From NCBI GenBank assembly GCA_949317995.1, contig OX439036.1, positions 85,008,420 to 85,072,419 of the forward strand: a stretch of 64,000 bases of DNA, read 5' to 3'. The translations under genes and the position numbers were made by a program. The notes beneath the pieces were generated by a model that was given only the letters and a program-made list of their open reading frames with translations, was not told the origin of the DNA and did no database searches. Positions 5,765-59,739 of this stretch are shown here, piece after piece. This DNA comes from Acholoe squamosa. Lineage: Eukaryota; Annelida; Polychaeta; Phyllodocida; Polynoidae. The stretch's first letter is position 1. Each line of letters opens with the position of its first letter.

Positions 5765-5881
5765 TTAACGTCTGGAGATTTCAGCAATAGCCCGTCGAAC
5801 CAGCGGGAACTTCTGCAGGTAATCAGCTGCCTCGGCTACTGTGCAGGAGGCCAGTCCAAGAACCAGTGCAAGGGGTACCAC
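5765..5881 (-). CDS. GCKR: GCKR-like exon 19, stop codon
   Basis: Acceptor TTTCCTTCCTCCAG leads into VVPLALVLGLASCTVAEAA, continuing DYLQKFPLVRRAIAEISRR and TAA. It joins exon 18 (ends SANRSK, donor GTCAGT) in phase 0. Confidence 0.92.
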   Translation of the reverse strand: MVPLALVLGLASCTVAEAADYLQKFPLVRRAIAEISRR

Positions 5882-8800
5882 CTGGAGGAAGGAAACAATG
5901 GGCACATTAAGTTAATTTATTATGTGTGTTTTTTTCTGATAACCGTGTAAACCTACACGGGTGAGTATTCAAGAGATACGCATAGAGACGATGCATATGA
6001 CAGTGCACACAGGTGATTGTTATTTTATTGCTACTACCAGATAATGTAGATTATAATGATAGGACTTGCAGCACCGACTGACCTTTGACCTGTTGGCTGA
6101 GACTTCCAGGTGCTTGCTGATTGATCTCTCAGGACCAGGATCATCAGACTGGTAGATGGATTTTAGCAGAAGCTCCTGTGCCAAATCCCTCTCACACCCA
6201 ACCAACATCTACACAATTAAAAGGTGTAGTGGGAAATGAGAGAGTATAATCCTAACACAGAGATGTAATATCCTAGTGGCGGATCGAGGATTTGGAAAAG
6301 GACAGGGCACACCTCCTATTTTTGAGCAAATTTTGGGGTCCAAAATATCTATAATTAAACTCTTATGTACTGGGAAAAAGGGGGTGCGCGCTCCCCGGAC
6401 CCCCTCTAAACCCACCACTGAATAGCTTTAACAACAAAGAGAGTTCTCTCTGTTGAAAAAGAAAATGAATTGAAATCATAGCTTTCAGAAAATTGTCTAA
6501 CATCCTATTGGGATTTACCTGGATTATTCGCACAGCCCTGTGGAACAATTTGTTATTGCTGAAATAAAAAATAATGTTTTTATTATCTAAAGGTATCTAT
6601 ATCATGAAATATATCTCAACTATTCAGAAAATACGAGTACATGGAGCTCACACTGAGGTAACTCTCCTTGCACTCAGGGAGCAGCCAAAAGGATATAAAC
6701 GCGCTATAAAAGGCACGGCTGTTTTCATTCTAGTCTTGTTTATTCTCAGTGTCACCGTGGGTGGTAAATATCCATTTGATATGCTTAAATCGACCAACAA
6801 GTCCACTATAATGGGATCAGCTCCCCATGGTTCGCTTATTCCGTTTACATTAAATCCCTCATAAATCCCTAAGCAGACAAACCATGATGGGTCAGGGAAA
6901 AGACTATTCACCACAATCTCCACTAGAGCTAAAAGAGCTGACGACAGGAAGGTTTACCTCACGTTAACATCAACCATCAGGTTCTGATAGACCTTCCCAA
7001 TCCTGACATGAGCTCCTGTGCTGAGGGTATTACAGAACCATTTAGCTGTTACTTCCACCAAAGATGTCCTAATGCTGTCAATGTATTGGGATGGCAGACC
7101 AGTGAAGCATGGGCCTATGTCTACTTGGAGACTGGCATCAAATGACGATGTCACATTTTCACTTAGTGCCTGAAAAGTAGTAATTTGTTGTGAATTGTGT
7201 TCTCCGTGCTCACTTCTGATAACAGAGTAAATCGGTGCCACAATGACAATCATCTCACCTTGGTACGAGTATGTATGTTTAGAAGAATAGTCGAACAGCC
7301 GAATCTCTCCAGGGCTGGGACAAAGCTGAGGTCTCCATCTAGAGAAGAGATTCAGGAGACGATGACCCTTTAATCAAATAGACTTAAATCATAATGAATC
7401 TAAATCCAATAATTAACCCGCTTCAACACACCTTAGTCAGAGAGCAGGACAGAGTTCTAATCATAACCATCCACCGCAAATGATAAGACATTATGCATTA
7501 TAACCAAAACCAAATATGTGACCCATCAAGGGAGAACACTCCTCCGTGGGGGATTTTTAATTCCCCATTTGGCCACCAGGGGGCATTGGAGGTGTAAAAT
7601 CATTATAAAAATACACTAGGCTAATTTTTTATGCAGAATTCATTGGCCTCATTTAAAATGTACCATTTTTGGTAGAAATGGCACATATTTGGATGGTAAA
7701 ATGAACATTTTTCATGAGAAATCAACCTATATGCATGTTTCTGGTTGCCATTGCAACCATTCCATTAATCAAAATTTGCTGATTTCTATGCCAATTTTTG
7801 GGGATACTCACCAAAAACCTAAAACCAAAATGTAAAATTCCTTCTAGATCAAAATCTATGATAAAAATCACCATATAATTTATTGTTATGTATTTTTATG
7901 AAAAAGGCTGATTTATTGTGTTGTGGTCACATATTTAGTCCTACATTCATGCCCCGACTCATGCATGCATCAGCACGCATAACTACCAGGCAGTCTAATC
8001 TATATTGATGCTCAAAGCCGAAATAAAATAAAAGTTCCCTCCATTTTTGTCATGAAGTACACATTACCCCTTGATACAACAATCACGTGATCAGAGAACG
8101 TGGTCTGTGGTAGAACCGATGATGTGAAGTATTCAACATCAATAGGGAACTGTAAGAGAATGATATACAGTGTCAAATGGTAATGTTTCTGTACATGAGG
8201 TCAATATCTATCGTTTTCTCATGCCAGGCATACAAGGTCCATGATTGTTAAATGGAAAGAAGCTCCTTGTGATAAAAGGTGTCATCTTACCTTGTCACTC
8301 ATATCTCCATCTATGTTCTTTAGACTAGTGAACCCTCCTTTTATAAAGCCCCGAACATCTTCAAGAGCTGTAAGGGGAAATGGTAAATACGGTTATATAA
8401 GGTCCTTTTGACAGCAGCACTGTCAGATTAGCTTACTGTTATAGACAAAGTCATTTATGGTTGCCATTAATCAGCTTTAAAAAGTATGTATACATGCAGA
8501 ACTGCATAGGAATTTCTGAACCTGATTGATGTGATTATACCCACATGAGCCATAGGTAGGTGCACATTCAGACGCGTCTACCATTCCCACAATGCCAAGA
8601 GTTTCATCTCCAAGGTAATATACATGCCCATCATTTTTAAGACTGCAAATTCGATAAAAGTAAGCGTCGATCAGTGTTACTATAATTATGAATTATAGCC
8701 ATTGCTTATCTAGGAGATGCGCCTATGATGGGAGTCGTAAAGATGCTTCAATCGATGGTTACATGGCTCATCCATTTCTTTGCATTTATCTAAGTCTGCT

Positions 8801-11800
8801 TCCCTTGAATTTTATAGATTACGTCCTCCACTCGCAGGATTAACATGCAGCCCAAGCGGACTACTTCCCGATGAGCTCCCTGATTATAATGTCGCAGGGT
8901 CTATTTCAATATAGCTGACGGCAACATAGCTCTCAAAATATCAACAAGTCAATTTTGTGTCATTAAGTACAGGAAACTGATATGACCAAAGCATATTTTT
9001 ATTACTACACACGTATCAATGTACAACGACATGACAGCTCCCAACTGAGATGGCGAAAATTATTCATCAGTGAATTTTCAGATCGCCAGCTTTATTCAAA
9101 TAAGCCCCAGGGTACATACATTGACCAAGCGCTATAGCTAACCCAGAGAAACCCTATGTTTCCTATCACTACAGGTTTTTTCCCCCAATGATTAGCCCCA
9201 ATTCCAATCTTACTTACCTAGAGGCTGCCATGTCTACCATTTGCCCCATAATCTCGTCATTTCTATTTCCATGAAGTGCATGAAGGGCACAGCGATAGGC
9301 ATTTATGACCCTCCGATTTGATTCTCTGCAAACCAAACATAGGGGTGGTACCTATATATCATGCACATCACACAGAAAATAACTGTTCTGGTATGGGAAC
9401 GTTTGACCATCATATCACTGTTTTTTAGACATTTTTCAGGATCCACCAATCCCCTTGTCACTGTTTTTTATGGAACATATAATATAGCCTTGTAGGCCAG
9501 CAGCACAGGGTACCTCAGAGGTGATTTGATTCATGAAAGTACTGAAAGCTACATGTTCCTTTCATGTACAGGGGACCCTCACATTCATGAAAGGTGGTGT
9601 AGTAAAGGTGAACTCATGCGGGCTCTATGAAATCAGCGAATGAGTATGACCATGTCTTTAAATTTTAATCCTGTTTTTAAGAGCCTAAATATGCATGGAT
9701 CTGTCTGTTTTGACACTAATGTTGGTCATACAAAGATTTTGATGATGCCTAGCCCGCATCATTTGTTGCTAGGATCCCTGGTTACCTAGCAACAGCCACT
9801 TCTGCCTAGAAACAGACCCCTTCCGAGACAGGTAGGGTTTCTGACACCAGAGACATAAAGATAACACCTTTATATCTCTGCTGACACTAATATTCGTCAA
9901 ACAAAGATTTTGATTATACCTACCCCCTCCCACCTAAATTGGGTCCAAGGAACACAATAAATGTAGATATTTCTTGCTAGTTCCATGTGATTGCTTAGCA
10001 ACAGCCACATTTAGAGAGCTGCTTTGGAAAACATCTTAAAATGGTGATGATGGAAATCATTTTTAATTTTCTGATGAATATTTTTTTGGGCAGGTGATTG
10101 CTTAGCAACAATGAACTTGCTTAGCGACTTATCCCCAGGAACCCAAAAGACCCCCCCACCATCACCCCCTGAGCAGTGATGTGATTTTTGAATGTTCCCT
10201 ATTTATTACTTAATCAATAGCCCACGAGCCCCTACATTATCTAAAGCAGTATACGTTGCTGGTTAATCTATATACTATGTCATTCACAGTGGCAGATTTA
10301 GAGGGGGGCACGAGGGCGCACGCACCCCCCTTTTTCCCAGTACTTAAGAGTTTAACTACATATTTTGGACCTCAAAATTTGTCCAAAAGCAGGGGGTGCG
10401 CCCCCTCCTTTTGGGCCGTGCCCCCTCCTTTTCCAAATCCTGGATCCGCCACTGATTCATATGTATACAGGTGAATAAGGTGCAATACGAACCACATGTG
10501 TGTTAGAAAACTTAAGGTTCTTGCCAAAAGATAACGAGCATGAACCTCTGTAAATCTTTCAGAGAGTGCTGAGGAAAACGTGTATGGCCTAACTCGCTTT
10601 CCTAGTATTGACAAAAAAAATTACAGCAGAATCCTTGGTAAACTCTTTTTCATATGTTGAAAGAGGTGCACGTTTTCTCTAGAGGATTATCCAAACAATT
10701 CTTTAACAAGACAAAAACGTGCATGTTTTCATTCTTGGTTCACGTTTCTCTTTTGGCAAGACCCTCCTGTGGTGACAGAATCATTGCCAAACGAGACTGA
10801 AGATTTACACTAACAGTCTATCGGCATGTGGAGCCATCTGGTGTGAGATCCTGAAAATGGTGTCCAACAGCACCTTGGTGGCAGTGCCAGCCTTCATACG
10901 ACTGGAGCCAGTTATTAACTCCGGCTGGAAATTTATATTATTCTTTGTTTTATATATACAAAATGTATAACACATCATTATCAATTTGTAAATAAGAGAT
11001 AGACTACTTCACATGTGGAGGCCTATGGGGATACCACTTAATACCCACTGAGAGGGTCTGTTTAGTCTCACTGTATTTATGCAACACTTATGGTCATGTT
11101 AAATGCTAGAGAGAACTGCTTGGGAGTGCAACCCGTCAGTTTAGACATTTATATCTTAGAAACGGCTGAAGCCAAGCAAATGAAAATACCCCAGTATATA
11201 CTTAGGTAGCAAACCAGTTATCTAAGCATTATGTTTGTGGATAATGGCACACCCATTTCAGTGGTATCAGGAGAAGTATCATGATCAATTAAGATAAAGA
11301 TTCACATCACTTACCCCAACCATAGGGTTAAGGATAAATGCACAACCTTTTTCGACTTCATGTTCCACAGATTTGGCAACTGTAATAAAATGAACATAAC
11401 CCAGTCTCAGTGCCGTCATTGACTGAGCATTTTACATCAGTATTATTTTTTCTGAGAACAGTAAAACACCATGGTTTGCAAACAGGGAGAGAGCAAGTTA
11501 GGTCTTGTTCTTGGTCTTGCAAGGGGATATTGGTCTATGTATGCGTGCTTTTGGTTTAAAAAAGTGATAGATATTTCACATTACCTTCAAGGAATGTCTT
11601 ATCCCATCCCTCAATCCGTAAATTCCTGTTGTAATAAAAAAATGATAATGTTTTCGTCTCATATTACTATTGTTCATTCCCGCGTAATAAGTTGGTAGTT
11701 TCAACAGAACAGTTCACGAGTAATAATTCTGGTAGTAATTTAAGTAAAAAGACTAAATTCTAACCTATACATACTACTTATCAGACTTTTCTCTGAGAGC

Positions 11801-14800
11801 CAACTGGTGATATCATTAAAGTCGGAGAAAGATTCAGGCAATTTTAGGTTCATGGGAGATATGAGAGATGTCAAGCCAGTCAAAAATTGACCCCTTGACC
11901 ATACTCAACAGAGCATTGCCTAGGTTCCATTTCAAATGCCTGAGAGTTGATGCATAGGATAATGCCAGATTCTTTCTTGAGAGCCTAACCAACTGTCTCT
12001 CTAAAGAACAAGACCTGGCTGGGCGCCTGACTGACATTTTTATTTGTTTCCCTACCTGGCCATATTGACAGGGTTGAATCCAATGAGAACGGGTGTATAT
12101 TTCTCCGGTTCCCTCATACATAGGTCCAACTGGCCAGCTACATAGGGCGCTGACAGCCCACATGTGATACCCACATAAAGAACGTGATTCACACCTCTAG
12201 ATACCTATAACATCAAAACAGGGTATTATGAAAGGGAAATGGGAAAAGGTGCAAAAATGTGATATGAATGTCACGTAAGCCTTAAAAAGCTGGCAAGAGA
12301 ACGTCAAATTTGTTCATTCATAATTTGACAATTTTAAATTGAATTCATGTGCATCTTCCATGCAAAGTACCTGGATGATGCATGATCTTATGGTTTGCAT
12401 TAGCATCTATGATAAAAGAGTTAGAAAAGGACACATATGAAGAAGGCAGGCCATCCATGGTGTGTAAACCAGTAGAGCACATTGGATCCTTTTTGAGTCG
12501 AGGTCGATTATGTCCTCTGGAATGATCTATATCGTTTTGTACCACGGGTGGAAAACTAGTCTCAACCACATGCTCAGTGTAGTCCTCTCTAGTAGTATAG
12601 ACAGGGTCTGACAGTCAACAAAGTCCCTGGTCTCCCCTGTGTTTACACAACCCACCCAATCCACATGGCTACTTTAAATATGCACTACTGAGGGCATATA
12701 TAACATATTGAGGTGCACTAGGTGATTCTATGGGCAGATAAGAAGCACGAGGCCGTAGGTCGAGTGCCTTCTTATCTAGCCCATAGAACCACTGTGTGGA
12801 CCTCTATTTGTTATCTATGGCATTTATACCATGGTTTTAACCATTAAGATAATTATTTTACCTTATAAAGCCATGAAATGCACTGATTTTTGTTGCGAGT
12901 TGATGACAGAGCTCCGATTCAAATCAAAACACGGTCTTCCTCAGCGAGTGGACCGGACGCAAAATATTACGTCAACGTGTGTCGGAGGGGCATTTTGATA
13001 GTAGAACCGCTGGTAATCAGTGCGCGCAACGGCCAGAATACCCTTAGAGCATATGCCAGCGTGACAACTTGTGTCTTGCCACGGTAAACAATCCGTCCGC
13101 TACGCAGTCAACATAACGGCAAAAATTTCGCTCGATTCGATTTTTATATCATCAATCATGTTACATATACATGTCAAATCATGGCGAATTAAAGGTAGGT
13201 GATAGAATATAATGTCAAGATTCATCATGTGTAGCCATTAAGCTTCTAATACTATGTTTTTTTTTAATATCGAATTAAATTCTTTGCTGTCAATTTGCTG
13301 TCACATCATCTCGTCTCAAGTGTCAACATGGGTTCATTTAGCACATACTATTCGAACTTCAATATCCTCTCCAGGCACCATAAAATCGTTCAAGAACGTG
13401 ATAACCATGGTATAACCCTAGGTATCCAACATCTCACCATGGCACTCGTACTAGGTGATAGGGCACACTTAATGATTGGTTCTGTATAGGCCACTTCAGG
13501 GAAACAATCCAATTAACTACATTGCCCTCTGGGTATGTGTTGGGTAAGGTGACAATATCTCACCCTCTTGCATTTCATATACACATGATAAATAGGATCA
13601 TAAGGCCTGTTTGTTTAGGCTCAATCATATAACTTCCTCATTTTCAGAATAAAGTTAGAAAATGTATTAATATCAGCTTTGTATAGCTCTTACAGTGTCT
13701 TATTTCAGATATGTTAAATTCTCATGGAATTTCTACTCATGGTGTAGCTACCTGGCCATACATATTTATAGGAAATGACTGCCTACAGCTTACCAGCCAC
13801 TGCCATACTAACTACAATTTACACTCAGTTATAGGACAATTAATGATTCAGCCCTCTGTACAGTGCATGTGTTTGGATACCTTTGGGATAATACATATTC
13901 AAAGTAGCCATGTGGATTGGGTGGGTTGTGTAAACACAGGAGAGACCGGGGACTTTGCTGACTGTCAGACCCTGTCTATACTACTACTGAGGACTACACT
14001 GAGCATGTGGTTGAGACTAGTTTTCCATCCGTGTTTGGTACCTTTTCCAATTCTTCCTGGCCCAAAGTAGGTTTGTCCTCGTATCCCTCCTGGGACGTAA
14101 ATAGTGCACTGCATAGCAGACAAATCCAAAATGGATAAAACAATTGGACAGGAGTTTGAAGATTAGGAAGATTACCAATCAGCCCTTATATTGCAATAAC
14201 ATGAAGTACATGTAGATAGGAGACCAAGGACAACCCCTCATGTGTATACATAACTATATCTACCTGGTATGAAACCCACTTTGACATTTGAAGGATAGTT
14301 AAAATAATGTAGAATTATGTGGAGAGCCGTGTGCATATACTAACCTAAATATTCGATGCAAATTGAAACAAAAACATTATAATCATCAAATACCAGTGTG
14401 GACATGAACATAATAGAGTACTCACATGTCATTTCCAGCCATCAGATATTTAAAGCATGGTGACTTATTCTCCTTCTCCAGACATGAATTCATAGCTTTC
14501 TGTAGAGATAAAGGCGGATTAACCTGACATTGCGTAGATCCACTTTACTAAATTGCATGGCATTAACTTTATACACATGAAACATGCAGGACACTTAGTC
14601 ATTATCATATTGATGTGGAATGTAATCAAACAACTTAAAGATATGTAGAGGTTGGCGAAAATGTCTCTGGAGACACCGGGATTCGAACCCGGGTCTCTCG
14701 CTTGCAAGTCGAGCGCTCTACCGCTGAGCTACATCTCCTGGCCTGACATACCCTGTCACCAACATGGCCTCACTGATATTTCCACCTTCCAACTACCTCT

Positions 14801-15799
14801 GGATCGGTATGGTATACATTGGGGGAATGGCCACCAAGTGAGCTGGCCTCTGGAGTCTTAACACACCCGGGGAGGGAATGAACCCCTACAGATACATTAC
14901 CAGCTGATTTTGGGAGATTTTTTAATTTCATAAGTTCATTATTTGATTTTGGGTCGACTGAGGTGGGAATGTATCTGGTGATTTCTTACTGCAGTCATGA
15001 AGGCAAATCGACCTGAAGTCCCACAGCCTGCTAGCACAACGGCGTTGTTCTCACAATCCTGAAGCGGAGAGAGTTTTTTGTGCAGATTATAATTATATCT
15101 TCAGATGACCAACGAAACCGATCTAACAAGCATTGAAACCATGTTCTGTTCATTTAAAAAGAATAAGCTGGGATAATATACCTGCAATACCGCTGAAACT
15201 TTGCCCTGGATTTTCGCAATAGTTTGCAGCACATCCTCATTGAGAAGTCCCTGTGGATGGAGATGTAAGTTTTGAGAGAACGATTTGAGACAGGCCCAAA
15301 AGTAGAATAATTCTGCAATAGTGCTACCCTAGTCTTGTATCATGTTAGGAGCCCCACAAATGCTTTACATTCACATGTGAATTTAATTGGAAGGATTTCA
15401 TTAGGCTACAGTGTCCTTACTCTGTGGACACGTGTCTCTACTCTCTTAGTACTATACATCCCTTCATCTATCAAGCAGATGCGTGTGAGTTGCCTGACAA
15501 CATTTTCAGGACCTTACCAACGATTCGTCCCAACCAGTGAATACCTCATCTTCCCGAAGCATTAACGCGGCAATTTCTACAAATATACGTATATTGATCA
15601 TAAACCGGTGAGACTGATGAATTAACCAACGCATTTATAAAGAAGATTTTTTTCACTATATCTATTTGAAAGATATAATTAAAACAAGGTAGACAAACTG
15701 ACGCTTGATTAGATCGTATAACTTTAACATGCCTTGTGGGGATGCGACGTCTATTTGTTCAGATGCTGGGTGCCTCTGTTCTGTGTATGGCACTGCCAT
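5765..15799 (-). CDS. GCKR: Glucokinase regulatory protein-like / MurQ-family two-SIS-domain protein, 19 exons
   Basis: Sugar-phosphate-binding protein of the GCKR/MurQ family. In vertebrates GCKR inhibits glucokinase, while bacterial MurQ cleaves N-acetylmuramate 6-phosphate. Exons as inferred: 15733-15799, 15518-15576, 15182-15250, 14990-15058, 14426-14499, 14042-14108, 12056-12204, about 11778-11893 (uncertain), 11315-11379, 10815-10924, 9218-9325, 8545-8642, 8291-8367, 8068-8149, 7259-7338, 6958-7169, 6519-6558, 6083-6208, 5765-5881. All phases agree, giving about 594 residues (human GCKR about 625). Signatures in order: AGCGTSGRFAF (first SIS), QEGYEDK, GITCGLSAPYVAGQ, NPMVG then PELITGSSRMKAGTATK (family signature), DASECAPTYG (second SIS), STGAHVRIGKVYQNLMVDV, and an EISRR C-terminus. 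The start ATG has context AAAATGG with an in-frame TAA 18 bases upstream. Function in this animal (inhibitor, etherase or sensor) is not shown by sequence. Confidence 0.93.
6276..6420. mobile_element. GTGGCGGATC-type MITE copy in GCKR intron 17
   Basis: Starts GTGGCGGATCGAGGATTTGG and ends CCACCACT with a G-rich interior. A second copy in the opposite orientation is at 10,287-10,454. No clear target duplication on this copy. Confidence 0.7.
6958..7169 (-). CDS. GCKR: GCKR-like exon 16, C-terminal cap motif
   Basis: The longest coding exon of the gene. Contains STGAHVRIGKVYQNLMVDV, the conserved C-terminal motif of the family. Acceptor TTTTCAG, donor GTGAG/GTAAAC. It splices in phase to the 40-base exon 17 (NNKLFHRAVRIIQ). 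Confidence 0.93.
7370..8067 (-). other. Long GCKR intron 14 sequence
   Basis: About 730 bp AT-rich intron between exons at 8,068 and 7,338. Nothing else recognised. Confidence 0.6.
8545..8642 (-). CDS. GCKR: GCKR-like exon 12, second SIS domain with MurQ Glu83-type motif
   Basis: Contains NDGHVYYLGDETLGIVGM followed by VDASECAPTYGS. DASECxPTYG is the segment holding catalytic Glu83 in E. coli MurQ; human GCKR has a diverged form here. The following exon (8,291-8,367) continues LEDVRGFIKGG. Donor CAT/GTGGGT is weak. Confidence 0.88.
10287..10454. mobile_element. GTGGCGGATC-type MITE with 5-bp target duplication in GCKR intron 10
   Basis: Ends CAGTGGCAGATTTAGAGG and GGATCCGCCACTG, flanked on both sides by ATTCA (10,282-10,286 and 10,455-10,459). 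The interior has long G and C tracts. It is the inverted sibling of the copy at 6,276. Confidence 0.8.
10514..10769. mobile_element. Second copy of the GGAGGGTCTTG MITE
   Basis: Shares with 2,838-3,060 the blocks CAGAGAGTGCTGA, GTGTATGGCCTA and the end GGCAAGACCCTCCTG. The left terminus is eroded. Lies in GCKR intron 10, about 45 bp from the donor of exon 10. Confidence 0.7.
10815..10924 (-). CDS. GCKR: GCKR-like exon 10, family signature
   Basis: Encodes PELITGSSRMKAGTATK near its start, following NPMVG from exon 9. This is the GCKR/MurQ signature block and nearly matches the E. coli MurQ text in the same position. Acceptor TTTCCAG, donor CT/GTTAGT (weak but the only one in phase). Confidence 0.9.
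11778..11893 (-). CDS. GCKR: GCKR-like exon 8, boundaries uncertain
   Basis: An exon is needed here to join exon 7 (ends NPVNMA plus AG) to exon 9 (starts with TT then AKSVEHEVEKGCAF). The open frame contains SDFNDITSWLSEK. Two phase-compatible acceptors exist. CAAG at 11,894 gives the longer exon listed, with a weak pyrimidine tract. ATCACCAG near 11,804 gives a micro-exon with a better tract. Two donors (exon end 11,778 or 11,787) also fit. The coding status of the SWLSEK part is better supported than the ends. Confidence 0.5.
12543..14033. mobile_element. Fold-back element with about 140-bp inverted arms in GCKR intron 6
   Basis: Arm 1 (12,543 to about 12,685) is the inverse complement of arm 2 (about 13,895-14,033) at high identity. 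Termini read CACGGGTGGAAAACTAG and its inverse. Flanking TTTTGTAC (left) and TTTGGTAC (right) look like an 8-bp target duplication with one mismatch, which would fit hAT-type insertion. The interior lacks a transposase and contains a nested hairpin element. Confidence 0.78.
12710..12804. mobile_element. Near-perfect hairpin MITE
   Basis: A palindrome of about 95 bp: GAGGTGCACTAGG and TTCTATGGGC on the left mirror CCCATAGAA and GTGGACCTC on the right, and the core AGATAAGAAG-CACGAGG mirrors TCGAGTGCCTTCTTATCT. Pairing continues weakly outside. Confidence 0.75.
14042..14108 (-). CDS. GCKR: GCKR-like exon 6, carries the MurQ Glu114-equivalent
   Basis: Encodes ALFTSQEGYEDKPTLGQEEL then EK. The EGYED segment aligns with EGAED of E. 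coli MurQ, whose last Glu (114) is catalytic. The donor is AAAAG/GTACCAAA, immediately next to a fold-back transposon in the intron. Confidence 0.88.
14669..14738 (-). tRNA. tRNA-Ala (UGC)-like gene in GCKR intron 4
   Basis: A 70-base cloverleaf. Acceptor GGAGATG pairs with TGTCTCC, the D arm is GCTC/GAGC, the anticodon loop is CTTGCAA (anticodon TGC) and the T arm is CCGGG-TTCGAAT-CCCGG. A/B boxes TAGCTCAGCGG and GGTTCGAATCC are intact, and a TTTT run lies 8 bases downstream. Oddities: A3:U70 instead of the alanine identity pair G3:U70, and an A31:G39 mismatch in the anticodon stem. It may be a real gene, a variant, or the source of a retroposed copy. Confidence 0.75.
14990..15058 (-). CDS. 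GCKR: GCKR-like exon 4, first SIS-domain glycine loop
   Basis: An acceptor CGCTTCAG and a donor GCA/GTAAGA bound 23 codons that include VVLAGCGTSGRFAFMTA. The GTSGR loop binds sugar phosphate in SIS domains of this family. Phase 0 at both ends. Confidence 0.92.
15733..15799 (-). CDS. GCKR: GCKR-like exon 1, start codon and probable GC-AG donor
   Basis: Encodes MAVPYTEQRHPASEQIDVAS then PQ plus one base. No GT donor gives the phase needed by exon 2, but AAG followed by GCATGT does, and it restores an E-I-A-A-L reading that aligns with the family. I therefore infer a GC-AG intron. A cDNA is needed to prove it. Confidence 0.7.
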
Positions 15800-27224: not shown

Positions 27225-27475
27225 TCTTTAACAACAGGATGGGGGGGGGGGCTTCAATTGACATAGGGCGTCAGAATTTATTCAACCCCCTTGATGGGGG
27301 GTCAAAATAATTTCACCTGTTTTCAGTAGAAAACCCCACGTGTTAGGCCTACTACCCAGGTAGCACACAAAAATTTGCCGACATTGGCCCGATGCATCGG
27401 GCCAACATTGGGCCAACGTCTAAAAGGGCAATTTTCATTTCTTACAGGGGGATCAAAAAAAATTCAACCCCTGGC

Positions 27476-28325
27476 ACACACCCACCCCGATGCACCCTGC
27501 GTATCATGTATACACCCTCCCCCCACCCTGCGTATCATGCACACACCCGCCCGCCACCCTGTGTATCATGCGTACACCCTCCCCCACCCCGCGTATCTTG
27601 CGCACACCCTCCCCCGCCCTATGTATCATGTGCATGCCCTCCCCCTGCGTACATGAATACACCCTCCCCCAACCCTGCGTATCATGTGCACACCCTCCCC
27701 GACCCTGCGTATCATGCACACACCCTCCCCCACCCTGTATATCATGTGCATACCCTCCCCACCCTGCGTATCATGCGCACACCCGTCCCCCATCCTGCGT
27801 ATCATGTGCACACCCTCCCCTACCGTGCGTATCATGTGCACACCCTCCCCCACCATGTGTATCATGCGCACACCCTCCCCCACCCTTCGTATCATGCGGA
27901 TACCCTTCCCCACCCTGCGTATCATGTGCACACCCTTCCTACCCTGCGTATGATGCGCATACCCTCCCCCCACCCTGCGTATCATGCGCACACCCTCCCT
28001 CACCCTGTGTATCTTACGCACACCCTCCCCCACCCTGAGTATCGTGTGCACACCCTCCCCCCCACCCTGCGTATCATGCGCACACCTTCCCCCCACCCTG
28101 TGTATCATTAATACACCCTCCCCCACCCTTCGTATCATGCGTACACCCTCCCCCACCCCGCGTATCTTGCGCACACCTTCCCCCACCCTGCATATCATGC
28201 GCACACCCTCCCTCACCCTGCATATCTTGCGCACACCCTTCCCCCACCCTGCGTATTATGTACACCCTCCCCCCACCCTGCGTATCATGAGCACACCCTC
28301 CCCCACCCTGTGTATCATGCGCATG
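27476..28325. repeat. 30-bp minisatellite, about 28 copies
   Basis: Unit approximately CACACCCTCCCCCACCCTGC then GTATCATGCG. It stays open in several frames on both strands because the unit is a multiple of three, so long ORFs here are artefacts. It continues at 28,512-28,695 after a SINE-containing segment. Confidence 0.95.
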
Positions 28326-28511
28326 GTTTGAAGCAGTCGCGCATGCGCGGTGGACCTATGACGTCATCGTGCGGATTTGGCGCCGGATGTGTGTGGTGCA
28401 CATATGCGCGGGCACTGACACATTCCTCTGTTAAATTATCAACCTGTGAAGCACGGGATAGCCACTTAGTGCCGCTAAAGTGCTGTAAAACACAAATCAA
28501 TCAATCAATCA
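28326..28511 (+). mobile_element. SINE copy with tail A, preceded by a duplicated 65-bp segment
   Basis: The segment TTTGAAGCAGTCGCGCATGC to about 28,385 recurs at 28,702-28,760. From about 28,387 comes the SINE core TGTGTGTGGTGCACATATGC, CACTGACACATTCCTCTG, then tail A (CAACCTGTGAAGCACGGGAT to GCTGTAAAACAC) ending in (AATC)n. The 5' head is missing. Confidence 0.75.
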
Positions 28512-28701
28512 ACCCACCCTGCGTATCGTGTGCACACCCTCCCCCCACCCTGCGTATCATGCGCACACCTTCCCCCCCACCCTGTGTATCATTAATACAC
28601 CCTCCCCCACCCTGCGTATCATGCGTACACCCTCCCCCACCCCGCGTATCTTGCGCACACCTTCCCCCACCCTCCCCCACCCTGTGTATCATGCACATGG
28701 T
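28512..28701. repeat. Minisatellite continuation
   Basis: Six or so 30-bp units of the 27,476 array, resuming directly after the SINE tail. Confidence 0.9.
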
Positions 28702-28868
28702 TTGAAGCAGTCGCGCATGTGCGGTGGACCTATGACGTCATCGTGCGGATTTTGCGCCGGTTATTTAACGCAGGGGTACAATACGCGGCCTCAGTGCATT
28801 GTCGATGGGGCATCGATATTCACCTTGACAAAACAAATATTATCAGTTGACAGGTTACTTCACATGAC

Positions 28869-29814: not shown

Positions 29815-31590
29815 ACATGTAAGTAATTCACAGGTGTGTAGATGTACCTCACATAGTGTACAGGTGTCTAGGTGCACCTCTAAGTAGAGTATAGGTGTGT
29901 AGGTAAACGTCAGGTATAGAACAGGTGTGTAGGTGTGTGTACTTTTTGTGTATCTCAGCTAGTTTACAGATGTGATTGTGCACCTCAGGTACAGTACAGG
30001 TGTGTATGTATACCTTTGGTGTACATCAGGTATATTCAAGGTGTGTACATCAGGTATATTCAAGGTGTGTAGGTGTACCTCAGATACAGTACAGGTGATC
30101 AGGTGTACCCTTTTCCACCTCATGTAAGTAGAGGTGTAGGTGCACATCAGGTGCAATACAGGTCGGTAGGTGCACCTCAGGTACAGTACAGGTGTATAGG
30201 TGTACCTCAGGTATGGTACAGGTGTGTATGTGTACCTCAGGTATAGTACAGATGTGTAGGTGTACCTCAGGTGCAATACAGGTCGGTAGGTGCACCTCAG
30301 GTACAGTACAGGTGTGTAGGTGTACCGCAGGTATAGTACAGGTGTGCTGGTGTACCTCAGGTGCAATACAGCTGTGAAGGTGCATCTCAGGTATAGTACA
30401 TGTGTGTAGGTGTATCTCAGGTATAGGACTCAGTATGGAGGCCTAGTGGAGCAGCCACATTGAATTTTGCTGGTTGAGGTAAAACCCACTGATAAGACAA
30501 ACCATGATGGGTACCTTGTCCCTGGTTTACACCCACTTCCAGGGACATGCTGGTCCCATCTTACCAGTTCTTATCAGGGTGTGTTGCCAGAACCCGCTCC
30601 GGACCAGCTTGTGGCCAATAGTACAGGTTTCTAGGTGCACCTCATGTACAGTACAGGTGTATAGGTGTACCTCAGGTATAGTACAGGTGTGTAGGTGTAC
30701 CTCAGGTGCAATACAGGTTGGTACAGAGATGGCAGAGTTTCAGATTTTCTCTGATTTCAGAGTTTCAAAGGTGATATTTTACTACAGAAATAATAGGGAA
30801 AAAAAATTAAAAATGAATATTTTATAATTCTGATAATCCTTAAAGATACACCAAACACTAAGTGATTAATTTTGAAGGTATTTGTCACTCTGATTCGGGT
30901 ATAACCCCACTTTTGAAGTGCCCAAAAATAATTTTCAGAGTTTCGCCAAATATTGTACTGACATCTCTGTTGGTAGGTCCAACTCAGGTACAGCACAGGT
31001 GTGTAGGTGTACCTCAGGTATAGTACATGTTGCGGGTGTACCTCAGGTGAAATACAGGTGTGTAGGTGTACCTCAGGTATAGTACAGGTGTCTAGGCGAT
31101 GTACCAGTTCTTATCAGGGTGTTTTGCCAGAACCAGCTCCGGACCAGCTTGTGGCCAATAGTACAGACGTGTGTCTAGGTGTACCTCAGGTACAGTACAG
31201 GTGTATAGGTGTACCTCAGGTATGGTACAGGTGTGTATGTGTACCTTTGGTGTACATCAGGTATATTCAAGGTGTGTAGGTGTACCTCAGATACAGTACA
31301 GGTGATCAGGTGTACCCTTTTCCACCTCATGTAAGTAGAGGTGTAGGTGTACATCAGGTGCAATACAGGTCGGTAGGTGCACCTCAGGTACAGTACAGGT
31401 GTGTAGGTGTACCTCAGGTGCAATACAGGTTGGTAGGTGTACCTCAGGTACAGCACAGGTGTGTAGGTGTACCTCAGGTATAGTACAGGTGTGCTGGTGT
31501 ACCTCAGGTGCAATACAGGTGTGTAGGTGTACCTCAGGTATAGTACAGGTATGTAGGTGTACCTCAGATATAGTACAGGTGTCTAGGAGA
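29815..31590. repeat. 30-bp minisatellite (GTGTAGGTGTACCTCAGGTA family), block 1
   Basis: Units about 30 bp (AGTACAGGTGTGTAGGTGTA then CCTCAGGTAC). Interrupted by a non-repeat segment at 30,431-30,620, part of which (the stretch ending CCAGCTTGTGGCCAATAGTA) recurs at 31,100-31,165, and by a MITE at 30,724. Decapeptide-like ORFs across the array are artefacts of the 30-bp period. Confidence 0.93.
30724..30969. mobile_element. 246-bp MITE inserted in the minisatellite, 6-bp target duplication
   Basis: Termini CAGAGATGGCAGA and ACTGACATCTCTG (inverse complements with minor mismatch), flanked by TTGGTA on both sides (30,718-30,723 and 30,970-30,975). The undisturbed array unit contains GGTTGGTAGG, so the pre-insertion site is recoverable. 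Confidence 0.85.
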
Positions 31591-36000: not shown

Positions 36001-37150
36001 CAGAACAGGTGTGTAGGTGCACTATATGTACAGTACAAGTGTTTAGATGTACCTCAAGTACAGTACAGGTGTGTAGGTGAACCATATTTACAATTCAGGT
36101 GTTCAGGTGTACCTCAAGTACAGTACAGGTGTCTAGGCATTACTTAGGTACAGTGTAGGTGTACCTTTAGCTGTAGCACAGGTGCACAGTTGTACCTCAA
36201 GCTCAGTACAGGTGGGTAGGTGTACCTCCGGTATAGTACAGGTATGTAGATTTACCTCATGTATAGTACAGTTGTGTAGGTGTACTTGAAGTACAGTACA
36301 GGTATGTAGGTGTTCTTCAGGTAGAGTACAGGTGTGTAGGTGTACCTCAAAACAGTACAGGTGGGTAGGTGTTCCTCAGGTACAGTACAGGTGTCTAGGT
36401 ATTACTTAGGTACAGTGTAGGTGTACCTTTAGCTGTAGCACAGGTACACTATAGGTACAGTACAGGTATGTAGGTGTACCTCAGGTATAGTACAGGTATG
36501 TAGATGTACCTCAGGTATAGTACAATTGTGTAGGTGTACCTGAAGTACAGTACAGGTGTGTAGGTGTTCCTCAGGTACAGTACAGGTGTGTAGGTGCACC
36601 TCATATATAGTACAGTTGTGTGGGTGTACTTGAAGTACAGTACAGGTATGTAGCTGTTCCTCAGGTACAGTACAGGTGTGTAGATGTACCTCAAAACAGT
36701 ACAGGTGTGTAGGTGTACCTCAGCTATCGTACAGTTGTACATCGGATGCACTCAAGGTGTGTATGTGTACCTTTGGTGCACCTCTAGTACAGGTGAGTAG
36801 GTGTACCTTTGGTGTACCTCAGGTACTCTACTGCTGTGTAGGTACAAATCGGGTATAGTACAGGTGTGTAACTGTCCTTCAGGTATAGTACAGGTGTGTA
36901 GGTATACCTCAGGTACCAAAGGTGTACCTTTGGTGTACCTCAGGTACTCTACTGCTGTGTAGGTACACATCAGGTATAGTACAGGTGTGTAACTGTCCCT
37001 CAGGTATAGTACAGGTGTGTAGGTATACCTCAGGTACAGTGCAGGTGTACCTCCAGCTAGCATACAGGTGTGTCGGTGTAACCCAGGTACAATACAGGTG
37101 TGTAGGTCTACCGTAAATTCTCTCGTATAGTACAGGTGTGTAGGTATACC
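33062..37150. repeat. 30-bp minisatellite, block 3, with nested higher-order copies
   Basis: Same family as 29.8 kb. Long near-identical blocks recur: about 33,600-33,900 with 34,560-34,860 (959 bp apart), and about 34,150-34,430 with 35,054-35,331 (901 bp) and 35,870-36,147 (816 bp). A stretch at about 33,910-33,990 reads in the opposite orientation. Confidence 0.92.
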
Positions 37151-37640
37151 TGCGAGAATCCAAATCCAAATTAGGCTTATAGAATTGGCCCAATGTCTGG
37201 GTGCGGCTTATGTGAGGGTTTTTTCGCACTATGAAAGAGTACTAAACCTTCATTTTCAAGCCTTGGAGATGCCCTATGGCTTATCTCAAAGTTGGGGGTC
37301 CTGCTTATATGAGGGATGCGGCTGATATGACAACTTACGGTACCTCCCCAGGGATGTGTGTAGCTGTAGCTCAGGTACAGCATAGGTGTGTAGCCTTACC
37401 TCAGGTGTACCCCAGGTGCAGTGGAGGTCCTGCTTATTTGAGGGATGCGGCTGATACGACAGATTTTACGGTACCTCCCCAGGGATGTGTGTAGCTGTAG
37501 CTCAGGTACAGCATAGGTGTGTAGCCTTACCTCAGGTGTACCCCAGGTGCAGTGGAGGTCCTGCTTATTTGAGGGATGCGGCTGATACGACAGATTTTAC
37601 GGTACCTCCCCAGGGATGTGTGTAGCTGTAGCTCAGGTAC
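37151..37640. repeat. Mixed block: minisatellite, MITE-like fragment and a 124-bp tandem unit
   Basis: A fragment ending TTACGGTACC resembles the TACCGTAA MITE. The segment GGTCCTGCTTATTTGAGGGA to GTAGCTGTAGCTCAGGTACA repeats about every 124 bp between 37,300 and 37,640. Confidence 0.7.
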
Positions 37641-39140: not shown

Positions 39141-39190
39141 AATCATTTTGACTGTACATTAATTGTTAACTCTGACATTACTTGAGCATC

Positions 39191-39844
39191 ATGGCATATA
39201 ATGTAATACTTCTTTCCAATTCTAGAGGTAAAGATATTAAGCCACAGATGGAAACTGCGCTTCAAGAAGACAGTCTTCGTGACACCATATCTTTTGATGT
39301 ACAGCCTTTTAGTGGTGCCACGATTGACTCTCTTGTTTTTCATGGTTTGAGATATCTTAGGCAGTCCTCGCATTGCCACTTGTTATATGTAATGGCAGGA
39401 GTGAATGACTTGAGTTTCCTTCAGCCTGATTATTCTGTGATTCCTGCATTTTCCGATGAGGAAACATTGTTGAAAACTATTTTCCCTAGACTTACTGCTG
39501 CCGCTGATATTTTTCAACGGTATGCAGATAAAGTTGTACTGTGTGAGTTGGTGGGTCTTTCTTTTAGAAATGTCAACACAGGCAAGAGCAACCTTCCTTT
39601 TCCAGATGAACAGGAAGTTGTCAACAATGCTGTGCCTGTGTTGAATGACTGGATAACAGAATGGAACCAACAGCACAGTGTTACAAGTCCATTTTTTATG
39701 CAGCTGGTCCACAAACCCAGACCAAATGGATCATACCAACCAAGGTACAACCCCACTTTGAGAGATGGTCTACACTTTAACGACTCAACATCCAAGAAAT
39801 TTGCAAGAAACATTGTGCGGACTATTATGGGTAACCTTTCATAA
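39191..39844 (+). CDS. SGNH/GDSL-like hydrolase, 217 aa, intact
   Basis: Starts at ATG 39,191 (the frame is open a little further, but with no earlier ATG nearby). All four SGNH blocks are recognisable. The nucleophile block is ILLSNSRGKD (Ser11 the likely nucleophile). Then come FSGATIDS (Gly42), AGVNDLS (Asn72) and DGLHFND (Asp192, His195). The family contains esterases and acyl-hydrolases, and also non-catalytic domains linked to invertebrate mobile elements. No signal peptide or membrane segment, so probably intracellular. It may be a single-exon gene or a terminal exon. The substrate cannot be told from sequence. Confidence 0.78.
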   Translation: MAYNVILLSNSRGKDIKPQMETALQEDSLRDTISFDVQPFSGATIDSLVFHGLRYLRQSSHCHLLYVMAGVNDLSFLQPDYSVIPAFSDEETLLKTIFPRLTAAADIFQRYADKVVLCELVGLSFRNVNTGKSNLPFPDEQEVVNNAVPVLNDWITEWNQQHSVTSPFFMQLVHKPRPNGSYQPRYNPTLRDGLHFNDSTSKKFARNIVRTIMGNLS

Positions 39845-56384: not shown

Positions 56385-59300
56385 TCACTGATGGCACAGA
56401 AGCGCAATCTTCAATTTCTGCCTGTGTTTCTCTGCTTTCTTGGTATTCCATATATTGATGAAAAACTGAACAAAAAAGACAAAGTGGTCCTGTGTCATCT
56501 GGCGGGCAGGGTACTTTATGCACTGTATGAAACTGTTAAATTGCTCTGCAATTTCAGAGTTAATCTTATCAGAACCAAGAAGTCTTGAGCCGTCATACAC
56601 TTTGCTGCATTTGTGTGAATAACCATGGAAGATATCATGGGAAAATTGAACATCATTGTAGTACCCAGATTCACGGTTTAAACAATACTCTTGAAGTCCA
56701 CATGCGAAATCATAGCATATCTTCTCAGGAGGTGATTGAAGATGTGTGTAGAGAGAGACTGCTGGATCTTTTCTCCCTTCAGATCCAGGAATCATGTGGA
56801 ACCCATAGCAATGCCCGTGCAAGGGGCAAAACCAAAGGAAAAGGTAGGATGATCCCTTCTTCCCCACCTGGGGATATATTTTACTACAGTATTCATTAGT
56901 TCTAGGAGGATCATCATGGTTCTTTTGCTGTTGCTGTTGGTCGTCAACGGAGAATGTTCTAACTGATCTGAGTTTTTCTCCAGATGGGGAGAAGTAGTAG
57001 GCCCTTCCATATTTGGGAGGGTTATATGTTCCTGGTTGTGGGAGTGCTTGTTCCTGAGGGATGCATGTTCCATGCAGGTTCACTACTCGCTGGATGAGGA
57101 ACATCAGGAGCCTAGATACATCGCGATGTGGTGCTCCTAACCCATTATCAGCCGCATAAGCTGATGCGGCGAATAACTCACGCATTTCTGGTGAATATTT
57201 CCTCATGTTCTGAAGAACAGTGTTGAACAACAGATTGCCATTCTCCACTACATTGGTCTGTGTGACATGTTGAATTAGTGTCTTAAGCTCCTGTGTGTAT
57301 TTGAAGGGCAGGATGGCAGACACAGGAGAATCAGATGCCAGAATCCTGAAGAAATGGCAGAGTGCAAGCCTTTCATTTAAGGAGATATCGTTGTTGATCC
57401 TACGGAAAGACGGACGGGCAGCTGGAGGTAAACCTTTCTCTGCAAGCCTTGTCAATTCTTGAATTTCTTGCTCACTAGTTTGCTTTCCTTGGAGATAGTT
57501 GTTTGCTATCTGACATACTGCATCTCTTGCCATACGAACATCAGCGTCTCCTATGCCATCATGGTAGTACATAAAGCATCGATCATACCTACGATGTGGT
57601 GTTTCAATGATAGCATTGGTGTCAGATTGCTCTATTGGAGTTACTTGCTGGTGGCGGAATGAAATACCAATTTTGGTGCCATCGCAGGCAAGTACTTTGG
57701 GCTGGGTTAGACATATGCTGCAAGGCTTCCGGAAATCAACCTTTTGGTTAGCAGCCCAACTAAACCACCAACTTATGAAGACACTAGGTGACATAAATGC
57801 TCTGCTCTCTGCTACCGATGAGTACATCATGGTCATTGCTGAACAAAATCCTGTGAAGGATTGGCGACCATGTGTTACCATGTGAATGAAATACCACCCT
57901 ATCTCATCACCAGCACATGTCTCAGTTGTGGAGACATGTATGCATTCGCTCTTTCCTTCATCCCAGAGCTGTTCACATCTTCGAGATAAGCATAAGCGCT
58001 TGTACACAGTAATTTCTACTGGGGCATGCATTGTGTACAGTTTCATCGAGCGCATATATTCAATGATACCTTCTGGAGAGTTTTCATCTGTCCAGCCAGC
58101 TGTACACTGACATGTCTGTTCAGGTATTGGAGGAATCTTCTTTGGTCCCTTTAAACAGCCATTCACACGTGGAATGCAGTCTTCATTCCTGTCATTAAGT
58201 GCCTGTCTATCAGCTATTGCTGATCTTAGTTGTGCACAACCATGTTGAACTGAAGAATGTGTACTGCGGCACTTGTATGTATACAGTCCACTTTGTGTGT
58301 TAAAACATATGTCTGCATCAGTGACCTGTACATCAGGAATTGGGTCTGCTTCTGGTTGATCAATGCTGTCATCGACTTGATGAATGGCGTCATCGACTTG
58401 ATCATCTTCCTTGTCGTTAGGCAATGGTTCTTCTGGCTGGGCAAACTGTTTCCACTCATCAATATTTTCCCTCATAATCATTAAGTGAGGACACACCTCA
58501 CCCTTTTGAAGCCAGGTCACCTTTCTTTTGGCGCCTTTGTCAGATTTGCATCGATTTAATTGGCAAGTTATAATGTTCTTTTTTGTGCGCTCCATGTAAG
58601 TTAGATGTACAAAAGAACACATGTCACCTACAAGCACACTGAATTTTGCCGTTTTGCCAGACGGACATGGTACAAAAGGTTTACCAAGATATTCCTTTGC
58701 TGAGGAGAAGAGTTGTTGCATTGGAGTTAGAGGATCAGTCACATTGTCACATTCCTGTTTGAGGAGTCTGCAGTGGACACAAGTAATCTCACCGTCTTCT
58801 AAGCTGAGGCCTCTCATTTCAGATTCTTCCACCAGCTCCCTGTAAATGCCACACTCACATATATAGTGGGCACCAGTTTCAACAGCCATCCTCTGACAGT
58901 GGATGAACTCCATAGGCTTGAAAAGCCCTGTTGTATCGTCAATGTCATTCATCATTAGTATATCCTGAGCTGGAGTTGAATAGCGCCAGCATAGTTTGCC
59001 ATTTTGAATGAGCTGGCAGCAATAGTTGTCATACAAGGATGATCTACCTGTGCTCATGTTTGCTGCTGGGAGTTGATCTTCTTGCAGTGCTCGACGCACT
59101 GCATCAGCAGTCATTTTCCTATTTTTCTGGCGCTGTGCCCGTTCATTAACATTTACAGGATGACGAGGTTCATGGGGTTCAATTGGATCTTGAGCGTCGT
59201 CCATGGGTTGGTCTTCTTTGGGTGCTGGTTTGCAGAGTTCGCGGCAAGCATCCTGTAGAGTTGCTACCCGCTTACGAAAAGACCTTGCCCATGTGATCTT

Positions 59301-59562
59301 CCCTCTGATGGACCAGGGGCACTTGTCTAGCACAGGTAATTTGTGTGCAAACTTGAATGACTTTGGCTTGGACTTTGGGTAATTAGGGATGAGAGATATT
59401 GCATCACATTGTTCCTGCAGAGAAGCATACCCAGGAAGACGATTCTTAAGAAGATGAGCGACATCCTGTTTCTTGTATGGTGCACCATGAACTGGGTGAC
59501 TCTGGAACATTTCCTCTAATGCTGTTTTACATGGTTGCAGTGAGCCAGAAGAGTGAATATAC
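56385..59562 (-). CDS. KDZ/HMGXB3-like transposase-derived protein, one giant exon
   Basis: An open frame of about 1,058 codons. It has no usable ATG at its start, but a good acceptor (TTGTTTCTCCATTTATCCAG) sits at 59,563, so I infer the exon begins there in mid-codon and earlier exons lie upstream. Landmarks: Cys-rich YICECGIY and ITCVHCRLLKQEC, CQCTAGW, then a putative RNase H-fold core: VLACDGTKIGIS (Asp at 57,681-57,683), KICYDFACGLQEYCLNRE (Asp at 56,709-56,711) and NSEIAEQFNSF (Glu at 56,553-56,555). The YDxACG and N-E-E-x-x-N-S patterns recall KDZ transposases and the related part of vertebrate HMGXB3. A QQQQQ run is present. No inactivating stop, so either a recent element or a domesticated host gene. 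The HMG box, if any, would be upstream. Confidence 0.65.
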
Positions 59563-59739
59563 CTGGATAAATGGAGAAACAATGTTGTGTCACTTTATTA
59601 TAGAAAAGATCTGAAATTTATTTCTAGAAAAACAAGTCTTTCTTTAGAGAGGTGGACAAAGGCCCATTGAGCACAATGGAATGCAGAATATGAATACCAT
59701 TCTTACAGTTAAAGAAATTGCCTCAAATTCATCACTTAC
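59563..59739 (-). other. Intron upstream of the giant exon
   Basis: Pyrimidine-rich intron end on the minus strand. The sequence then enters minisatellite, so the preceding exon is not visible nearby. Confidence 0.4.

Follow-up and report, generated by a model that had tools for sequence, protein, structure and literature searches.

The closest described relatives of the protein presented here are vertebrate GKRP and bacterial MurQ. In human GKRP (PDB ID: 4BB9), the site for fructose 1-phosphate (F1P) and fructose 6-phosphate (F6P) is formed by 19 residues, namely 13 residues of the first SIS half (SIS1) including Glu153, residues Glu348 and His351 of the second half (SIS2) and four residues of the lid (legend to Figure 1 of PMC4109836). 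The descent of GCKR, the gene for GKRP, from an N-acetylmuramic acid 6-phosphate (MurNAc-6-P) etherase and the presence of GCKR-like genes in non-vertebrates have already been published, as a passage of PMC3613411 relates second-hand, and human GCKR has 19 exons according to an excerpt of the same source. Here we describe a GCKR gene located on the minus strand (15799-5765) of a stretch of 64,000 nucleotides from the annelid Acholoe squamosa (assembly GCA_949317995.1, contig OX439036.1, positions 85,008,420 to 85,072,419), hereafter referred to as the window. Our analysis makes it very likely that this locus is a normal and intact member of the GKRP family, the product of which would be a pseudo-dimer with one composite site, most likely binding a sugar phosphate and predicted to be insensitive to fructose phosphates.

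Exon by exon rebuilding of the minus strand, from the ATG at 15799 to the end of the stop codon at 5765, gave a gene model of 19 coding exons which encode 569 amino acids (aa) with no internal stops. All three GKRP domains of Pfam were found above their cut-offs, namely GKRP_SIS_N (residues 56-165, 137.5 bits), GKRP_SIS_2 (residues 285-460, 83.3 bits) and GKRP-like_C (residues 467-563, 102.1 bits). The best match in the PDB is the GKRP of entry 3w0l (E=2.6e-124, residues 3-563), followed by human GKRP entries (1.1e-103) and then by MurQ (4e-26 to 4e-25). The gene model, the three domains and the PDB match support the original prediction of a complete, MurQ-related GCKR. Among the NCBIfam models, the MurQ equivalog TIGR00274 was missed (185 bits against a cut-off of 302) and so was the subfamily PRK12570 (183.1 against 255), while the broader subfamily PRK05441 was passed (204.3 against 168). 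The window protein is 36% identical to human and 40% identical to Xenopus GKRP, and these two are 59% identical to each other; from these identities, the label 'invertebrate' given to it earlier seems plausible. A literature search on invertebrate GCKR returned no paper on GCKR among the matches listed, which does not exclude the existence of such papers.

The central feature of the protein is the distribution of two glutamates over its two halves. In the second half, DASECAPTYG (8549-8578, residues 315-324) aligns with DASECPPTYG of E. coli MurQ, which places E318 (8567-8569) at Glu83. In the first half, EGYED (14075-14089, residues 120-124) aligns with EGAED of MurQ, with E123 (14078-14080) at Glu114. 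We take Glu83 and Glu114 to be the catalytic residues of MurQ. Both places are occupied by Glu in 81/81 MurQ sequences, consisting of E. coli MurQ and 80 scanned loci; these loci are the best 80 of 584, ranked by their likeness to the window protein, a choice that carries a bias. Since Glu is present in all of these sequences and GKRP is matched so strongly in the PDB (E=2.6e-124), both motif matches reflect homology and not chance. No Glu is present in the first half at the Glu83 column and none in the second half at the Glu114 column (IDGDMSD, 8294-8314). A pair of MurQ-type glutamates divided between the halves, each half being without the Glu of the other, is thus found as it had been predicted.

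The same division is seen in vertebrates. Human GKRP has SREGTED in its first half and DGVEC in its second, the 3w0l protein has SQESSED and DAVEC, and the 4lc9 protein has SREQTED and DGVEC. Entries 3w0l and 4lc9 are taken by us to be Xenopus and rat GKRP, which fits the GKRP complexes of these species in PMC4109836. All three distinct vertebrate proteins (frog, rat and human) therefore carry both glutamates in the same halves as the window protein, which is the pattern that had been named beforehand as the one to speak against a special arrangement, and the notion of a split unique to this animal was dropped. As judged from these sequences, the divided arrangement is ordinary and ancestral. 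A divergence of vertebrate GCKR at the DASEC site had also been proposed. This holds for the neighbouring residues, which are altered (DGVECIHTF in human, DAVECVPTY in 3w0l), but not for the Glu and the Cys, which are kept in 3/3 proteins.

Human residues were mapped onto the window protein with a numbering that agrees with the tryptophans given in PMC4109836. In this mapping, human Glu153 corresponds to E123 and Glu348 to E318. Because the two human glutamates lie together in a single composite F1P/F6P pocket, E123 and E318 would by homology share one as well, and the alternative of two separate pockets was dropped for the same reason. The sharing of a pocket, which the original prediction had put forward for checking, is therefore correct but was known before from human GKRP.

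Over the whole F1P/F6P site, the aligned residues of the window protein are the same as in human GKRP at 15 of 19 places. The four differences (window/human) are C77/G107, T149/S179, C150/V180 and P321/H351, and Xenopus GKRP likewise has Cys at the places of G107 and V180 and Pro at that of H351. Residue 178 is given as Leu in the legend of PMC4109836 and is Ile in the human sequence that we aligned. Pro at the place of P321 is present not only in Xenopus but also in 81/81 MurQ sequences (position 86), and His351 therefore appears to have arisen later, in the line leading to mammals. Xenopus GKRP is described in a passage of PMC4109836 as unresponsive to fructose phosphates, apparently because of H350P. 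With the ancestral Pro at residue 321 in place of the His351 of mammals, the window protein is predicted by analogy to be probably insensitive to F6P and F1P, unlike mammalian GKRP.

The window protein retains more of MurQ than the vertebrate proteins do. We defined conserved MurQ positions by a consensus of >=95% among the 81 MurQ sequences (n=68) and found the consensus residue in either half at 58 positions in the window protein, compared with 47 each in human and Xenopus GKRP. In the second half taken by itself, it is found at 38/68 positions in the window protein versus 25 in human and 29 in Xenopus; the first halves are nearly equal (30, 30 and 29 of 68). In a recount with three MurQ sequences picked independently of their likeness to the window protein, the excess persists but is smaller (84 of 133 positions versus 70 in human and 69 in Xenopus), with exact McNemar p values of 0.016 and 0.017 which are rough as the positions are non-independent. 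By sequence, the window protein is thus more MurQ-like than the human and Xenopus proteins compared. Ten of the 68 positions are matched in neither half (N12, R64, A70, L79, P85, A113, T144, A154, M213 and K265). The MurQ loop AASGRTP is replaced by TCGLSAP in the window protein, by SVGLSAP in human and by SCGLSAP in Xenopus GKRP; within it, the SGRTP stretch (MurQ 141-145) reads GLSAP in the first half of the window protein, so that G142 (81/81 MurQ) and T144 (78/81) are replaced.

It seems most plausible that the GKRP chain, which consists of two MurQ-like SIS halves and a C-terminal lid, is organized as a pseudo-dimer. The active sites of a MurQ-like ancestor would each have been composed of parts from two subunits, a dimer geometry that we infer. 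Once the halves were joined in one chain, one composite site may have been kept, with the phosphate loops and E123 contributed by SIS1, E318 by SIS2 and N477, K479, L480 and R483 by the lid. The mirror site would have decayed, leaving SIS2 without a phosphate loop and without Glu114, and SIS1 without Glu83. This one-site state would already have been present in the ancestor shared with vertebrates, and a sugar phosphate would be the most likely ligand of the kept site.

A tree of the SIS regions bears on the age of this arrangement. It was built from the N and C halves of the window, human and Xenopus proteins together with 25 MurQ sequences (24 of the 80 loci and E. coli). One branch has the three N halves together on one of its sides, and a second branch does so for the three C halves, with a bootstrap of 100% each, as would be expected of a two-half state older than the split of the window animal from vertebrates. 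Some observations weigh against the picture drawn above. The tree was midpoint-rooted for drawing only and contains long branches (1.85 for the C half of the window protein), the rows of the human and Xenopus C halves are odd in composition and the bootstrap is unsettled, and gaps surround the Glu83 column of the first half, in which the residue is S or A depending on the alignment, Glu occurring in neither. A single clade of all six halves is neither shown nor rejected in the approximately unbiased (AU) test (p 0.409), and with this value the tree favours neither a duplication within the gene nor a fusion of two enzymes.

A bacterial protein with two halves was not seen in the samples searched, which lie outside Bacteroidota; this is a weak negative, which refers to the matches listed and leaves some long frames uninspected. 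The first scan of bacterial contigs for two-half relatives gave 27 pattern matches, of which 0 were confirmed. Of the best 80 of 584 confirmed in the second scan, 75 have reading frames of 272-334 aa, and the five longer ones measure 345, 346, 378, 412 and 600 aa. Three of these five were inspected, and two of the three begin with additional residues before the usual start of MurQ and seem over-extended. The 600-aa frame, from Nocardia panacis (L072), appears to encode a transcription regulator followed by a single MurQ; we presume the regulator part to be MurR-like. A tblastn search of plasmids gave 94 records, and the 20 listed span 750-870 bases each, as is the case for a single MurQ that matches both halves. 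In the 10 genomes reached through the loci, GKRP_SIS_2 was matched in 10/10, over profile positions 4-81 at most. Among 301 genomes of the phylum to which the genome of locus L019 belongs, 46 were matched, 20 of them over the cut-off; the matches listed lie within positions 2-70 of the 191 of the GKRP_SIS_2 profile, and some of the frames, up to 723 aa long, are uninspected.

The possibility that the window protein is a working inhibitor of glucokinase, as vertebrate GKRP is, appears rather doubtful from its sequence. It belongs to the same family and has the full set of domains. At the places of L463 and L464, which we take to be glucokinase contacts of human GKRP, it has G429 and L430, respectively. 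D413, one of the two partners proposed for glucokinase R186 in a passage of PMC4109836, is kept as D379, but the other, Q443, is replaced by E409 and the nearby P446 by T412. These contact residues would neither show nor exclude inhibition of glucokinase by the window protein.

It is improbable, in our view, that the window protein cleaves MurNAc-6-P at its single composite site by means of E123 and E318, with N-acetylmuramic acid (MurNAc) from ingested or symbiotic bacteria as the source and its phosphorylation by the animal's NAGK. Both catalytic-type glutamates are kept, as are the T72-S73-G74-R75 loop in the first half and C84, P86, T87 and the lid residues K233, L234 and R237 in the second, and the excess of MurQ-type residues (58/68; 84/133 in the recount) points in the same direction. 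NAGK phosphorylates MurNAc in vitro at levels similar to N-acetylglucosamine (GlcNAc) and is an enzyme retained through evolution according to a passage of PMC9477735, and therefore an animal GKRP with a MurQ-like site could have a substrate. A true MurQ gene acquired from bacteria is reported for ants in a part of PMC13320244. On the other side, the change of AASGRTP to TCGLSAP removes G142 and T144 from the first half, neither half has the consensus residue at ten of the 68 conserved MurQ positions, and the equivalog cut-off of TIGR00274 was missed by a wide interval (185 versus 302 bits). GCKR is also said to have lost the etherase activity during evolution (second-hand, in a passage of PMC3613411), and because vertebrates keep both glutamates despite this reported loss, the two glutamates alone are no proof of activity. 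If the protein did act as an etherase, it would, together with NAGK, feed peptidoglycan sugar into GlcNAc 6-phosphate and glycolysis, and the control of glucokinase would represent a role that this salvage enzyme took on later, in vertebrates.

A second copy of the GCKR locus is present on another contig (C15:58462237-58485546) and is 92-98% identical to the window over long blocks including introns. This copy is damaged: one additional base shifts the frame in exon 3, the 5' end of exon 4 is missing, and no exon 9 was found. The remaining 16 exons align with those of the window without gaps and at 97.5-100% identity, with 8 synonymous and 8 non-synonymous differences in 502 codons. Its motif reads DASECPPTYG, its intron 6 is ~14 kb long versus ~1.8 kb in the window, and it shares the GC donor of intron 1 with the window gene. 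At C15:58395121-58395718, exons 2-4 are present once more in an inverted fragment. These C15 loci (L004-L007) look like decayed duplicates; an assembly error is possible. All 34 matches of a whole-genome search, in which only the best candidates were scored, lie in the window and in the C15 loci, and no complete GCKR other than the window copy was seen in that search. The existence of a second locus 92-98% identical over long blocks notwithstanding, a reading of the window gene as a duplicate in decay, with the working copy elsewhere in the genome, is hardly credible, as the damage sits in the C15 copy, the window copy is intact and all 34 matches are in these loci. The notion of the window gene as a pseudogene was dropped likewise, the C15 copy being the damaged one.

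The 19 coding exons of the gene model are all located on the minus strand. Exon 1 (15733-15799, residues 1-22) starts with the ATG and is followed by a GC-AG intron, the GC donor of which lies at 15731-15732 (AAG|GCATGT); the other 17 of the 18 introns are GT-AG. Exons 2 (15518-15576, residues 23-42) and 3 (15182-15250, residues 43-65) precede exon 4 (14990-15058, residues 66-88), which by alignment carries the SIS1 phosphate loop GCGTSGR. Exon 5 (14426-14499, residues 89-112), together with the last part of exon 4, corresponds to the MurQ Glu83 stretch, where the column is without Glu. EGYED is located in exon 6 (14042-14108, residues 113-135) and, by alignment, the loop TCGLSAP in exon 7 (12056-12204, residues 136-184). 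These are followed by exon 8 (11585-11625, residues 185-198), exon 9 (11315-11379, residues 199-220), the exon that was not found in the C15 copy, and exon 10 (10815-10924, residues 221-256), where the GSSRMK loop is aligned. The second half begins in exon 11 (9218-9325, residues 257-292), exon 12 (8545-8642, residues 293-325) contains DASECAPTYG, and exon 13 (8291-8367, residues 326-351) contains IDGDMSD. Exons 14 (8068-8149, residues 352-378), 15 (7259-7338, residues 379-405) and 16 (6958-7169, residues 406-475) lead to exon 17 (6519-6558, residues 476-489), whose lid residues N477, K479, L480 and R483 are equivalent to human N512, K514, L515 and R518. The lid, as assigned by Pfam, continues in exon 18 (6083-6208, residues 490-531) and exon 19 (5765-5881, residues 532-569 and the stop codon).

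The sole tRNA reported in the window, a tRNA-Ala (TGC), lies within intron 4 of the gene and on the same strand (14668-14738). Elsewhere in the window, a 1069-codon open frame on the minus strand (56385-59594) has a sub-threshold match to the KDZ transposase family (23.8 bits, cut-off 26.6), and an open frame on the plus strand (39176-39844) has a sub-threshold match to a GDSL-like lipase (22.5 bits, cut-off 32.9). The long open frames at 27347-28705, 29959-30429, 31175-31582 and 36752-37207 consist of short peptide repeats of the types YHAHTLPHP and YLRYTYTPVL, in places on both strands, and look like tandem-repeat DNA and not like genes.

The window protein has kept the ancestral Pro and exceeds the compared vertebrate proteins in its number of MurQ-type residues, which makes it suited to asking if the original animal GKRP was an etherase or a sensor of sugar phosphates, and also to dating the rise of fructose-phosphate control. 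Like vertebrate GKRP (4BB9 from human, 4LC9 from rat, 3W0L from Xenopus), with which it aligns over nearly the full length, the window protein has two SIS halves and a lid, both glutamates in the matching halves and a phosphate-site loop, TCGLSAP, near to theirs and different from AASGRTP of MurQ. It differs from vertebrate GKRP in the replacement of Q443 and P446 and in a second half closer to MurQ (38/68 versus 25 and 29), and from mammalian GKRP in having P321 where H351 is found there. Each of its halves is a homologue of bacterial MurQ (E. coli P0001; PDB IDs: 4LZJ, 1NRI and 4S12), the Glu83 segment being retained in the second half, the Glu114 segment and the phosphate loop in the first, and the motif NxKLxxR in the lid. 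Unlike MurQ, the window protein carries the two halves on one chain and would have one composite site only.

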